Shown here: in pieces, positions 28,612 through 31,711 of the stretch
Position numbering within the stretch: position 1 is the stretch's first letter
Layout: every line of letters begins with the position of its first letter
From: Spirochaetia bacterium
GTDB taxonomy: Bacteria; Spirochaetota; Spirochaetia; Sphaerochaetales; Sphaerochaetaceae
Direction of reading: 5' to 3'
NCBI GenBank assembly: GCA_009930195.1
Contig: RZYT01000003.1
Span: 1-38,899 of the forward strand
DNA length: 38,899 nt
Translations under genes and position numbers: made by a program
The notes under the pieces: generated by a model
Databases searched by the model: none
Told to the model about the DNA's origin: nothing
The model's input: the letters and a program-made list of their open reading frames with translations, nothing else

Positions 28612-29190
28612 TTACTCAGTCACTTCTGTAGTTGCAGCAGCCTCGGCAGCAGCGGCCTTTGCAGCTTCCGCTTCAGCCTTGGCAGCGGCTTTTGCAGCCT
28701 CTGCGGCAGCCTTGGCTTCTGCAGCCTGGCGAGCCTTCACGGTTGCTTCACTTTCGACCACAAGCTTCACCTCGGCACTCTCGTCCTCATAGAGGCGAAC
28801 ACGCACCGAATAGGTACCAACCATCTTGATGGCATGGGTGGCAACTTCGATCTTCTTGCGTTCAACTTCGATACCCTGCTTGGCCAAAGCTTCCTGAACC
28901 ATGGAGGAAGTGACCGAACCGAAGAGCTTGCCGCTCTCACCGGCGGAAACGACCATGGTCAGGGCAACCTTGTCCAGCTTCTCCTTCATGCTTGCACTTG
29001 CAGAACGCTTCTCGATCTTGCGTTTTTCGATTGCTGCGGTGCGGGAGGCAAAAATGGACTGGTTGGTCTTGTTGAACATGACTGCCATATTGTTGGGCAG
29101 CAGGAAATTACGGGCATACCCGTCCTTGACATCTACCACGTCTCCCTCTTCTCCGAGATTGACGACATCCTGATTGAGAATGATTTTCAT
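28612..29190 (-). CDS. rplI: 50S ribosomal protein L9 with alanine-rich tail
   Basis: A 192-residue L9. The N-terminal RNA-binding domain (MKIILNQDVVNLGEEGDVVDV, GYARNFLLPNNMA), the long connecting helix and the C-terminal domain up to about 147 are normal. Residues 148-192 add a low-complexity tail almost only of Ala, Lys and Glu, probably one long helix. Usual L9 ends near 148. AAGGAG lies 8 bases before the ATG. Confidence 0.95.
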   Translation of the reverse strand: MKIILNQDVVNLGEEGDVVDVKDGYARNFLLPNNMAVMFNKTNQSIFASRTAAIEKRKIEKRSASASMKEKLDKVALTMVVSAGESGKLFGSVTSSMVQEALAKQGIEVERKKIEVATHAIKMVGTYSVRVRLYEDESAEVKLVVESEATVKARQAAEAKAAAEAAKAAAKAEAEAAKAAAAEAAATTEVTE

Positions 29191-29202
29191 AGGGATAACT
29201 CC

Positions 29203-30171
29203 TTACTCATTGCTTCTATACGCTATCCATGTCTCCGTAACCCCTAACAAGGGAAGTACAAAGACAACCACCACGTTCACCCCAGGTATGAGAAACGCCA
29301 ACAAGAACACCGAGGAAAACAATCTGGCGGTATTGACAACCAAGCCCTTCCGCAACGCGAAATGCGTTGTGATGGCCATACCTTGCACAGCATACAGTAC
29401 GCTACTTCCCAACGCAACCTGCAGTGCCAAAGCACGGCTGAGGTAGTTCGCCTTGAGAAGAATCAGTGCCAGCACCAAGGTCCAGGACCCGAGAAATACC
29501 CAAAGTGTTGCTTCAGGAACCCTCCAGCCTGCAATCCGTTTGCTGAAACTGCTGTCGTACCGGTATTGGTAGCTCATCGCCATAAAGGAGGTGAAACCCA
29601 CCAACGCCATACACAGGGGAGCCAACATGGCTCCTATCGCCAAAACCGACATCCGATAAAGACTCCTCAACTCGCTGTCCGCAAGCAAAGCAGTCGGATC
29701 GGTGTCACCCGATGCCTGTCCGAGAATCATGCGAAAGGTCTCATACATTGCTGAATTGACCCACTCAAGCGCCTCGTTAGGCTTTGAAAACCCAATGACC
29801 ACCACAACCGAAGCAACCACGCCAAACAGGCAGGATGCCAGGTATCGGTACAGTGTCCGCCGCTCAGCAAGTGCAATCCATACCGCACTAGCGACCAACA
29901 ACACAGTCGGGATGAACAATCCGATCAGAAGCAGAATTCGGCCTTCCGGGCTGCCCAGGGCATCCCTGGAACGGATAAGCTCGGTTGCTGCCAACAGCAA
30001 GGCAACCAAGGCAACCGGAAGCAAAGCCACTTTCCGATCAGAAAACTTCGGGGCAAGAACCATCAAGGGGATGGTGAAGACCAGATTGCCGATCATCAGC
30101 CGGGAGAGCACGAAGCTCACACCCACCAAGATCAACATCTCTCTGATCGACTTGGAATCCAGACGGTTCAT
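29203..30171 (-). CDS. DUF2232/YybS-like membrane protein
   Basis: A 322-residue integral membrane protein with about eight hydrophobic segments. I call the family from general topology and from position: between rpsR and rplI, the spot occupied by YybS (DUF2232) proteins in several phyla. No catalytic motif is seen and the function is unknown. ATG 30171 has GGGAG only 2 bases upstream; a GTG at 30183, three bases after the rpsR stop, is an alternative start adding four residues. Confidence 0.7.
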   Translation of the reverse strand: MNRLDSKSIREMLILVGVSFVLSRLMIGNLVFTIPLMVLAPKFSDRKVALLPVALVALLLAATELIRSRDALGSPEGRILLLIGLFIPTVLLVASAVWIALAERRTLYRYLASCLFGVVASVVVVIGFSKPNEALEWVNSAMYETFRMILGQASGDTDPTALLADSELRSLYRMSVLAIGAMLAPLCMALVGFTSFMAMSYQYRYDSSFSKRIAGWRVPEATLWVFLGSWTLVLALILLKANYLSRALALQVALGSSVLYAVQGMAITTHFALRKGLVVNTARLFSSVFLLAFLIPGVNVVVVFVLPLLGVTETWIAYRSNE

Positions 30172-30186
30172 AGCTCCCAACACAGG

Positions 30187-30480
30187 TTACTTCTTCTCGA
30201 ACGGGAGGTACGCGAGAACGCGTGCCTTCTTGATCTCGTTGGTAACAGCCCTCTGGTGCTTTGCACAGCAACCAGTGATGCGGGCGGGAAGAATCTTTCC
30301 ACGTTCGGTGATATAGCGCCGAAGCATTTCGGGGTTCTTGTAATCAGGCGTCAGGTTCTGGGTACAAAACTTGCAAACCTTCTTGCGGAAGCTGGGCTTG
30401 CGTCCACCCATCCTTCTGTCGCCTCTTCCACTCTTTCCATCCATATCGTTCATCATGGAATCATTATCGTCATCGCGCAT
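30187..30480 (-). CDS. rpsR: 30S ribosomal protein S18
   Basis: A 97-residue S18 with the zinc-type cysteine pattern: C-x-x-C in KVCKFC and then [29 protein letters not shown] is the conserved core. About 30 extra N-terminal residues are acidic then basic, Met- and Gly-rich. ATG 30480 was chosen because AAGGAG lies 8 bases before it; an in-frame ATG at 30498 precedes that site. Confidence 0.95.
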
Positions 30481-30525
30481 GCATGTATCTCCTTGCATTA
30501 CTGTCAGCTGCCATACAGCAGCTTG

Positions 30526-31017
30526 TTAGAATGGGATCTGATCGTCGTCGAACTGCTCAGGGCCACCGATGTCCATCATGGGCACCGATTCCTTGGGAGC
30601 TGGACGAGAACCGTACGATCCTTGGCTTCTGGCCGCAGGCTGTTCGCTGCGACCTCTCTCACTCCTGCCACCTTCGGCGGAAGCGGATGAGCTTGAAAGG
30701 AGCTGCAAAGAATTGACGGCAATTTCGACCCGGCTTCGGCTCTGACCGTCCTGTTCCCAGCGACTCTGCCTCAGCTCTCCAAGTATGGAAACCTGCCTTC
30801 CCTTCTCCAGATACTGGTTGATGGATTCGGCGCTCTTCCCAAACATTGTGCAGTCAAAAAAGTTGGCCTCATCTTCCCAGCGATTGTCAGCCGTCCTCTT
30901 TCTACGGTTGACTGCGATGGAAAAACGACAGATAGCCATGCCTCCATTGGAATAACGAAGCTCGCTCTCCCTCGTAAGCCGGCCTACCAACGCGACCACA
31001 TTCAAGTCATTTGCCAT
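30526..31017 (-). CDS. ssb: single-stranded DNA-binding protein
   Basis: A 163-residue SSB with an OB-fold in residues 1-110 (VALVGRLTRESELRY, FDCTMFGKSAE, GELRQSRWEQDG). A Gly/Ser/Arg-rich linker leads to the acidic tip DDDQIPF that recruits repair and replication proteins. AGGGAG lies 8 bases before the ATG. rpsF-ssb-rpsR is the standard order in bacteria. Confidence 0.97.
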   Translation of the reverse strand: MANDLNVVALVGRLTRESELRYSNGGMAICRFSIAVNRRKRTADNRWEDEANFFDCTMFGKSAESINQYLEKGRQVSILGELRQSRWEQDGQSRSRVEIAVNSLQLLSSSSASAEGGRSERGRSEQPAARSQGSYGSRPAPKESVPMMDIGGPEQFDDDQIPF

Positions 31018-31040
31018 TCGTGTGCTCCCTTCTTTGCAGA

Positions 31041-31322
31041 TTATTTTTCGTTGTTTACAAACAAATACTTCAGGATGTTGGCGTGCAACAGAAAAGCCTT
31101 CTCAAAGCCAAGGATGGTACTCGGATCAGCCTTCAGCTCGAAGTAGACATAGTGTCCCTTTTCCTGTTTCTTGATGTCATAGGCGAGATACTTGACGCCC
31201 ATGTCTTCCTGCTTGGTAATCTCTACCCCGGCAGCAGCAAAGGTGCTGGTCACAAATTCCAGGCCAGCGGTTGTGTTCTCTTCGTTTGCATTGAAGATAA
31301 CGGTGAACTCATAATTTCTCAT
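31041..31322 (-). CDS. rpsF: 30S ribosomal protein S6
   Basis: A 93-residue S6, normal length, that pairs with S18 in the platform of the 30S subunit. Visible family features are the MRNYEFTVIF start and the VKYLAYDIKKQEKGHYVYFEL strand pair in the middle. AAGGAGG lies 4 bases before the ATG. It is the first gene of the rpsF-ssb-rpsR-DUF2232-rplI-dnaB operon. Confidence 0.96.
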   Translation of the reverse strand: MRNYEFTVIFNANEENTTAGLEFVTSTFAAAGVEITKQEDMGVKYLAYDIKKQEKGHYVYFELKADPSTILGFEKAFLLHANILKYLFVNNEK

Positions 31323-31381: not shown

Positions 31382-31411
31382 AGACTACCATACTTTCACG
31401 GACTAGGTCAA
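31382..31411 (-). promoter_or_regulatory. promoter of the rpsF operon
   Basis: On the minus strand TTGACC (31411-31406), an 18-base spacer and TAGTCT (31387-31382) give a sigma-70 type promoter. An overlapping alternative is TTGTTG with TATGGT at 16 bases. The leader would be about 55 bases. Confidence 0.5.
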
Positions 31412-31457: not shown

Positions 31458-31484
31458 AAAACCGCCGGAGCGACCGGCGGTTTT
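31458..31484. terminator. terminator after the small basic-protein gene
   Basis: AAAACCGCCGG-type arms (31458-31468 with 31474-31484) form a perfect 11-pair stem over a 5-base loop. Because the arms end in A and T runs it can act in both directions. On the minus strand it ends the small transcript 37 bases after its stop codon and separates it from the rpsF promoter. Confidence 0.85.
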
Positions 31485-31520
31485 CGCTTTGGTACCAAGC
31501 TTAAAGATTACCAGAAAAAA

Positions 31521-31610
31521 CTACTTGTTCTTGTGTCTATTCTTTCTGAGCTTTTTCTTTCTCTTATGAGTAGCAATCTTATGCTTTTTTCTTTTTCTTC
31601 CACAAGGCAC
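31521..31610 (-). CDS. 29-residue very basic AURKAIP1/COX24-like (bS22/mS38-type) ribosomal protein
   Basis: The frame starts with GTG at 31610, 7 bases after an AAGGAG site (31623-31618), and stops at TAG 31523-31521. The product is 29 residues, more than half Lys, Arg or His, with the core KHKIATHKRKKKLRKNRHKNK. The pattern KxKIATHKRKKxxRKNRHKxK is what I recall from bacterial AURKAIP1/COX24-domain proteins, which relate to mitochondrial mS38 and to the tiny ribosomal protein bS22. It is flanked by its own promoter (31683-31711), a leader hairpin and a terminator, so the whole unit is only about 215 bases. Family assignment is from memory of the motif; existence of the gene is well supported by its signals. 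Confidence 0.85.
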   Translation of the reverse strand: MPCGRKRKKHKIATHKRKKKLRKNRHKNK

Positions 31611-31623
31611 TGTAGAGCTCCTT

Positions 31624-31665
31624 ACCAGCCGGTTCTTTTTTTCAGCGATGCTGAAGCCGGGTGGT
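31624..31665 (-). promoter_or_regulatory. compound leader hairpin upstream of the small basic-protein gene
   Basis: Outer arms ACCAGCCGG (31624-31632) and CCGGGTGGT (31657-31665) pair with a single mismatch. Inside, TTCAGC-GAT-GCTGAA (31641-31655) is a perfect hairpin, with an eight-base asymmetric internal loop rich in A on the transcript. On the minus strand the structure ends directly at the ribosome binding site. Feedback control by the encoded RNA-binding protein is a natural guess. Confidence 0.5.
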
Positions 31666-31682
31666 TTTGTAATTACCGTACC

Positions 31683-31711
31683 ATTATGCGAGTATGCCAA
31701 AGGCTGGTCAA
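31683..31711 (-). promoter_or_regulatory. promoter of the small basic-protein gene
   Basis: On the minus strand TTGACC (31711-31706), a 17-base spacer and CATAAT (31688-31683) match the sigma-70 consensus at 5 of 6 positions each. The expected start is near 31676, just before the leader hairpin. Confidence 0.75.

Follow-up and report, generated by a model that had tools for sequence, protein, structure and literature searches.

A conserved, gene-specific element at the predicted start of the bS22 messenger in a family of spirochaetes

The window, as we call the whole 38,899-nucleotide stretch of DNA analysed here, carries on its minus strand a gene for the small-subunit ribosomal protein bS22. 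The spirochaete bS22 protein is already known; what is new is a conserved, gene-specific element, GTAATTAC, at the predicted start of the bS22 messenger in the family to which the window belongs. Read from 31711 to 31458 on the minus strand, the locus comprises TTGACC, 17 nt, CATAAT, GGTACG, GTAATTACAAA, a compound hairpin, AAGGAG, CTCTACA and a GTG start codon, followed by 28 more codons, TAG, and a GC-rich hairpin with a T run. Its features are as follows.

31706–31711, minus strand: −35 hexamer TTGACC, with a spacer of 17 to the −10 hexamer; TTGAC recurs in family leaders.
31683–31688, minus strand: −10 hexamer CATAAT, from the promoter scan and the family leader alignment.
31669–31676, minus strand: GTAATTAC, a palindrome of 8 bases specific to bS22, where the transcript is predicted to begin (+1 at 31676).
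31624–31665, minus strand: compound leader hairpin, ACCA-C-CCGG-C-TTCAGC / GCTGAA-(A-rich 8 nt)-CCGG-C-TGGT, from folding and covariation.
31618–31623, minus strand: Shine-Dalgarno sequence AAGGAG, 7 nt before the start codon and predicted to be unpaired.
31521–31610, minus strand: bS22 coding sequence (GTG start, 29 codons and TAG), from homology, conservation and synonymous bias.
31458–31484, minus strand: intrinsic terminator AAAACCGCCGGTCGCTCCGGCGGTTTT, a strong stem-loop.

Results

Identity and conservation of bS22

With GTG read as Met, the coding sequence gives the peptide VPCGRKRKKHKIATHKRKKKLRKNRHKNK, in which 16 of the 29 residues are Lys or Arg, within the size and composition that characterise bS22 (about 28–33 residues, more than half of them Lys/Arg). 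When the peptide was searched with phmmer against all PDB sequences (E ≤ 10), it matched only three chains, all from ribosomes, with alignments spanning residues 1–27 or 1–29. The best match was 8fmw_V, the bS22 of Borrelia burgdorferi (E 4.4e-8, residues 1–27 aligned), followed by 7jil_5 (E 7.8e-8) and 9i5v_10, an AURKAIP1/COX24 domain-containing protein (E 1.3e-7). The same three chains were recovered by a profile built from spirochaete and Bacteroidota bS22. Chain 5 of 7jil, the bS22 of Flavobacterium johnsoniae, and chain 10 of 9i5v are peptides of 29–30 residues that share with the window peptide the pattern MP.GKKRKRHK..THKRKK..NRHKKK at E about 1e-7. These matches bear out the proposal, made in the preliminary description of this locus, that the peptide is the spirochaete counterpart of bS22, and on sequence grounds we regard it as almost certain that the window gene encodes bS22, a basic small-subunit peptide of 29 residues.

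The Borrelia (Borreliella) burgdorferi protein (bb0822, 8fmw chain V) comes from the same phylum, is of the same peptide type and is likewise translated from a GUG start; a 2023 study reported it as an unannotated protein (PMC10618245), and the window protein is thus a further member of a known family and not the discovery of a spirochaete counterpart. Borrelia bS22 occupies a 30S pocket formed by h2, h27, h44 and h45, beside the initiation site (PMC10618245), and actinobacterial bS22 and mitochondrial mS38 have been described as structural counterparts in the same pocket (PMC10618245, PMC10085706). Neither of the latter was reached in the PDB sequences by the spirochaete and Bacteroidota profile at E ≤ 10. 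The AURKAIP1/COX24 Pfam model, which the preliminary description had put forward as a check on the peptide, failed to detect it: COX24_C (PF08213) matched neither the peptide nor anything in its own genome at E ≤ 10, in a search whose control, Corynebacterium glutamicum, was matched, and no other model of Pfam-A or NCBIfam matched the peptide either. The link to mS38 therefore rests on published structures and not on sequence. The suggestion that such a gene is easily missed by gene finders is plausible, given that Borrelia bS22 had gone unannotated (PMC10618245) and that the Pfam and NCBIfam models are silent here.

The peptide is conserved in related genomes. A homologue was found in 123 of 139 family genomes (E ≤ 0.001). 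In the wider class, 54 of 60 relatives from 25 families gave a hit at E ≤ 1, marginal in at least one case, and a sample of 198 genomes from across the phylum yielded 171 with a homologue. Comparison of 109 distinct coding sequences with the window copy yielded 874 synonymous and 276 non-synonymous codon differences, against a synonymous share of 17% expected for random single changes, and most of the variation falls at third codon positions. This pattern indicates that the peptide is under purifying selection.

The gene is normally present in a single copy; a few genomes gave two hits, and the majority of these are fragmented assemblies. Two hits in one assembly occurred in G094 (contigs C89 and C133), G066, G104 and G155, probably as a result of fragmentation or mixed bins; the upstream sequences of the two G094 copies differ, and both contain GTAATTAC. 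No bS22 was found in the family genomes G029 (97% complete, 1.2 Mb) and G095 (95% complete), which possibly represents real loss or an assembly gap, and a search for plasmid-borne copies found none.

Transcription of bS22 as a separate unit

The promoter TTGACC-17-CATAAT, the compound hairpin, AAGGAG, the GTG-started frame of 29 codons and the terminator were all listed in the preliminary description, and all are present on the minus strand and find support in comparison with relatives. The length of 215 bases given there for the unit was close; the computed value is ~219 nt (31676–31458).

Taken singly, the signals in the window are weak. A 2-kb scan of the window found one promoter match where 1.4 were expected, which is the chance level, and weak hairpins and terminator matches were likewise no better than chance per 2 kb. 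The fold z-score was −1.7 for the leader, mildly better than shuffled sequences, and −4.0 for the whole unit. Consequently, the case for a unit rests on the comparison with relatives, among which the promoter spacing, the Shine-Dalgarno sequence and the start recur. In 71 family leaders, the spacer that follows TTGAC measures 17 nt in 53 and 18 nt in 15; the CATAAT-type −10 hexamer is also present in many other families of the class. Terminator-like hairpins lie 3′ of bS22 in 85 of 101 family genes, compared with 9 of 101 shuffled controls. The comparison supports the prediction that the bS22 gene is transcribed alone, from its own sigma-70-type promoter to its own terminator. That the locus is a chance open frame accompanied by promoter-like and terminator-like matches, as the chance-level scans taken one by one would allow, has negligible probability and is refuted by the homology to ribosome-bound chains, the conservation and the synonymous bias.

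bS22 has no fixed neighbour. In the window's genus and several others, rpsF lies 3′ of it in the same direction, and in other genera rpsF is divergent and upstream.

31041–31322, minus strand: rpsF (bS6), a separate downstream unit, identified from its translation.

A bicistronic bS22-rpsF arrangement was rejected, as a terminator separates the two genes and other genera carry rpsF on the opposite side and strand. The rpsF leader in the window (31411–31323, minus strand) contains TTGACC at 31411, a hairpin ATCCGCTCTTGAGGGCGGAT (31365–31346) and AAGGAGG before an ATG; it matched none of the Rfam leaders. Downstream of bS22, positions 28612–31322 (minus strand) encode bS6, a single-strand-binding protein, bS18, a membrane protein and bL9, named from the translations of the open reading frames only.

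A promoter-locked element at the predicted transcript start

The most conserved element of the leader, GTAATTAC at 31676–31669, was absent from the preliminary description. It is exact in 71 of the 89 distinct family leaders, and in 69 of these 71 it begins 6 (47 leaders), 7 (13) or 8 (9) nt after the −10 hexamer, where transcription is expected to start. Its conservation exceeds that of both the −10 and the −35 hexamers, and its position is tied to its distance from the promoter; the distance from GTAATTAC to the start codon ranges from 25 to 87 nt. In the aligned leaders, the majority of sites that lie beyond the promoter hexamers and the immediate flanks of the motif carry 0.0–0.4 bits, and the A-rich positions directly after the motif are partly conserved. 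From this arrangement, we infer that the family messenger begins with GUAAUUACA, after which come an A-rich segment, a hairpin that some members lack, an accessible AAGGAG and GUG.

The specificity of the element was assessed by searching 138 family genomes for a pattern consisting of TTGA, a spacer, a −10 hexamer, 6–8 nt and GTAATTAC, with the reversed pattern as a control. The pattern occurred at 105 sites in 103 of the 138 genomes, and comparison of coordinates placed 104 of the 105 sites at bS22; the control gave none. The sole site away from bS22 is G018:C1:3081325-3081367 and may be due to chance. The genome from which the window comes has a single exact copy of GGTAATTACAAA, at this locus. 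A looser pattern search in the genus returned extra hits at the control rate only, and matches to CGGTAATTACAAA with one mismatch in single genomes were few and scattered, with somewhat more in G016. We accordingly rejected the idea that GTAATTAC is common to other promoters, as the genus extras stand at the control level and the family search found one non-bS22 site, that of G018. The placement of 104 of 105 sites at bS22, together with the fixed promoter distance, shows that the element is gene-specific and promoter-locked, and it remains at bS22 even where the gene has other neighbours.

About a fifth of the distinct family leaders lack the exact motif; several genera are included, and all retain bS22. 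Altered copies, or none, are found for example in the genera of L012, L039, L054, L056 and L073. In two variants, GTAAATTTAC (L076/L077) and GTAATATTAC (L042), the inverted repeat is kept and the centre is 2 bp longer; apart from the latter, the motif was not seen in the other families read. The bases flanking the palindrome are not symmetric. Leaders of genus g41 (L056, L058 and L061), which have no GTAATTAC, contain a different conserved hairpin, CCGG..TCACGTTGTGA..CCGG, upstream of the Shine-Dalgarno sequence. Overall, it is highly probable that the 5′ element is real and under selection.

The leader hairpin and the GTG start

RNAalifold analysis of the window's genus and one neighbouring genus predicted a hairpin of 12 pairs, 6 of them with compensatory changes, and an A-rich bulge on the 3′ side. 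In this alignment, 94% of cells were paired and the covariation score was 0.372, compared with 0.206 after shuffling and at most 0.149 after sliding. The covariation indicates that the hairpin is a real RNA structure at the genus level. Elsewhere in the family it is a simple stem of varying length, with no family-wide conservation, and L103, L114 and L116 have no stable hairpin, yet keep GTAATTAC. No Rfam 15 family matched the bS22 leader at the gathering score; sroD, ROSE_3 and HOTAIR_3 (E 0.08–9) were dismissed as chance matches. Sequestration of the Shine-Dalgarno sequence by the hairpin was likewise rejected: because this sequence is predicted to be open in most leaders, the hairpin does not appear to be a classical sequestering switch. 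It may instead have a spacing or stabilising function or contribute to a binding site.

A GTG start codon was found in 112 of 125 spirochaete loci (93 of 102 in the family and 19 of 23 outside it), whereas nearly all of the Bacteroidota and Neomarinimicrobiota bS22 genes that were fetched start with ATG and have no evident Shine-Dalgarno sequence, which makes GTG a spirochaete trait; the Bacteroidota genes thus differ from the window gene in both respects. The exception is L223 (positions 941–1003), a metagenome record labelled Bacteroidetes whose bS22 has AAGGAG and GTG; it is perhaps a mislabelled spirochaete or a case of transfer. The GTG start may simply be inherited.

Discussion

Control private to a single gene is the best explanation for a conserved sequence that is linked both to a promoter and to one ribosomal-protein gene. 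We tentatively favour the reading that bS22 is controlled through its own leader, most likely by autogenous feedback, although we hold this with less than even confidence. That the leader may be autoregulatory was suggested in the preliminary description; the conserved 5′-terminal GTAATTAC makes gene-specific control more likely and is a better candidate for its site than the hairpin; that it acts at the RNA level in autogenous control is a somewhat doubtful possibility. In such a scheme, bS22 molecules that outnumber the free 30S subunits would attach to the 5′-proximal part of their own leader, by themselves or together with a partner, and the leader-bound protein would retard the loading of 30S subunits at a start site whose strength GUG holds at a modest level. 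Autogenous feedback is favoured by the gene-specific motif, the genus-level covariation of the hairpin, the retention of GTG in spirochaetes and the precedent of a weak start in rpsT. Against it stand the palindrome, which equally suits a DNA operator, the predicted openness of the Shine-Dalgarno sequence, the absence of the hairpin in L103, L114 and L116, the fifth of distinct leaders without the exact motif and the possible inheritance of GTG. Mimicry of the ribosomal target by the leader was also considered. In primary sequence, neither the leader nor the motif resembles the 16S 3′ end contacted by bS22 (p 0.1–0.9), which was taken for this comparison from close relatives, as the genome's own 16S was not found in the assembly. 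Imitation of the h44/h45 end is not supported at the level of primary sequence: short words are shared (CGGCUGG and GUAA..CAA), but shuffled leaders score equally.

Alternatively, GTAATTAC could work at the promoter, where as the initially transcribed sequence it would tune start-site choice or promoter escape and so provide very strong or growth-rate-linked expression with no bS22 feedback. Its locking 6–8 nt from the −10 hexamer at the predicted first base, and its presence in leaders that have no hairpin, fit this proposal, as does the abundance of Borrelia bS22 transcripts in fed nymphs (PMC10618245); the Borrelia-like locus read here, however, has no motif. This locus, L051, probably belongs to Borreliaceae and encodes a peptide near-identical to Borrelia bS22, and unlike the window gene it has neither GTAATTAC nor a family-type leader. 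A general promoter grammar should recur at other strong promoters, but bS22 is almost the sole place where the promoter-linked motif occurs. We hold this alternative to be rather unlikely.

The perfect 8-bp palindrome, and the inverted repeat preserved in both longer variants, could also mark a DNA operator that spans the start site and is bound by a dedicated transcription factor responsive to some feature of growth or ribosome assembly. We consider this unlikely, since 8 bp is short for the site of a dimeric factor that has a single target in each genome, the flanks are asymmetric and the changes in centre length would disturb a dimer.

A third possibility is that 30S subunits devoid of bS22 initiate better on this leader, through its 5′ element and GUG, in the way that bS21-less Flavobacterium johnsoniae ribosomes act on rpsU mRNA. 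The precedent comes from a phylum with the same bS22 type (PMC9976891), and the position of bS22 at h2, h27, h44 and h45 places it next to the initiation site (PMC10618245). Like bS22, the product of F. johnsoniae rpsU is a small-subunit protein near the 16S 3′ end whose own mRNA has a distinctive initiation site (PMC9976891). The bS21-less ribosomes, however, use an extended Shine-Dalgarno sequence, whereas in the bS22 leader the Shine-Dalgarno sequence is a plain AAGGAG and the conserved element is another one, with no primary-sequence resemblance to the 16S 3′ end. We regard feedback of this kind as improbable.

Less convincing still is the view that bS22 is an ordinary gene whose leader is a 5′ stabiliser and spacer, with the motif kept by short evolutionary distance. 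The motif is limited essentially to one family and the hairpin is dispensable in some members, but over the same genomes hardly any conservation survives at most sites beyond the promoter hexamers, while the motif remains exact in most leaders, and we regard this view as very improbable.

For autogenous feedback, the reading that we prefer, a parallel in gene organisation is Escherichia coli rpsT, which encodes bS20 and is, like bS22, a monocistronic gene for a small-subunit protein with a weak start; the two proteins are unrelated. A role of the rpsT UUG start in autoregulation has been claimed but is disputed, and the mRNA has no conserved secondary structure of the kind typical of such leaders (PMC10931766). 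The window's bS22 leader differs in having a conserved 5′ motif. What the locus may represent, and we put this forward tentatively, is an undescribed form of ribosomal-protein control, in which an 8-nt promoter-locked element of the mRNA 5′ terminus (or of the DNA at the start site), GUAAUUAC, present at about one gene per genome, would act without Shine-Dalgarno sequestration and in company with a conserved GUG.

As Pfam and NCBIfam are blind to spirochaete bS22, the protein is probably under-recorded in spirochaetes, and the combined pattern of promoter and motif is itself usable as a finder of unannotated bS22 genes in the family. The gene-specific 5′ element also offers a sharp and inexpensive test of how the dose of the bacterium's smallest ribosomal protein is set.
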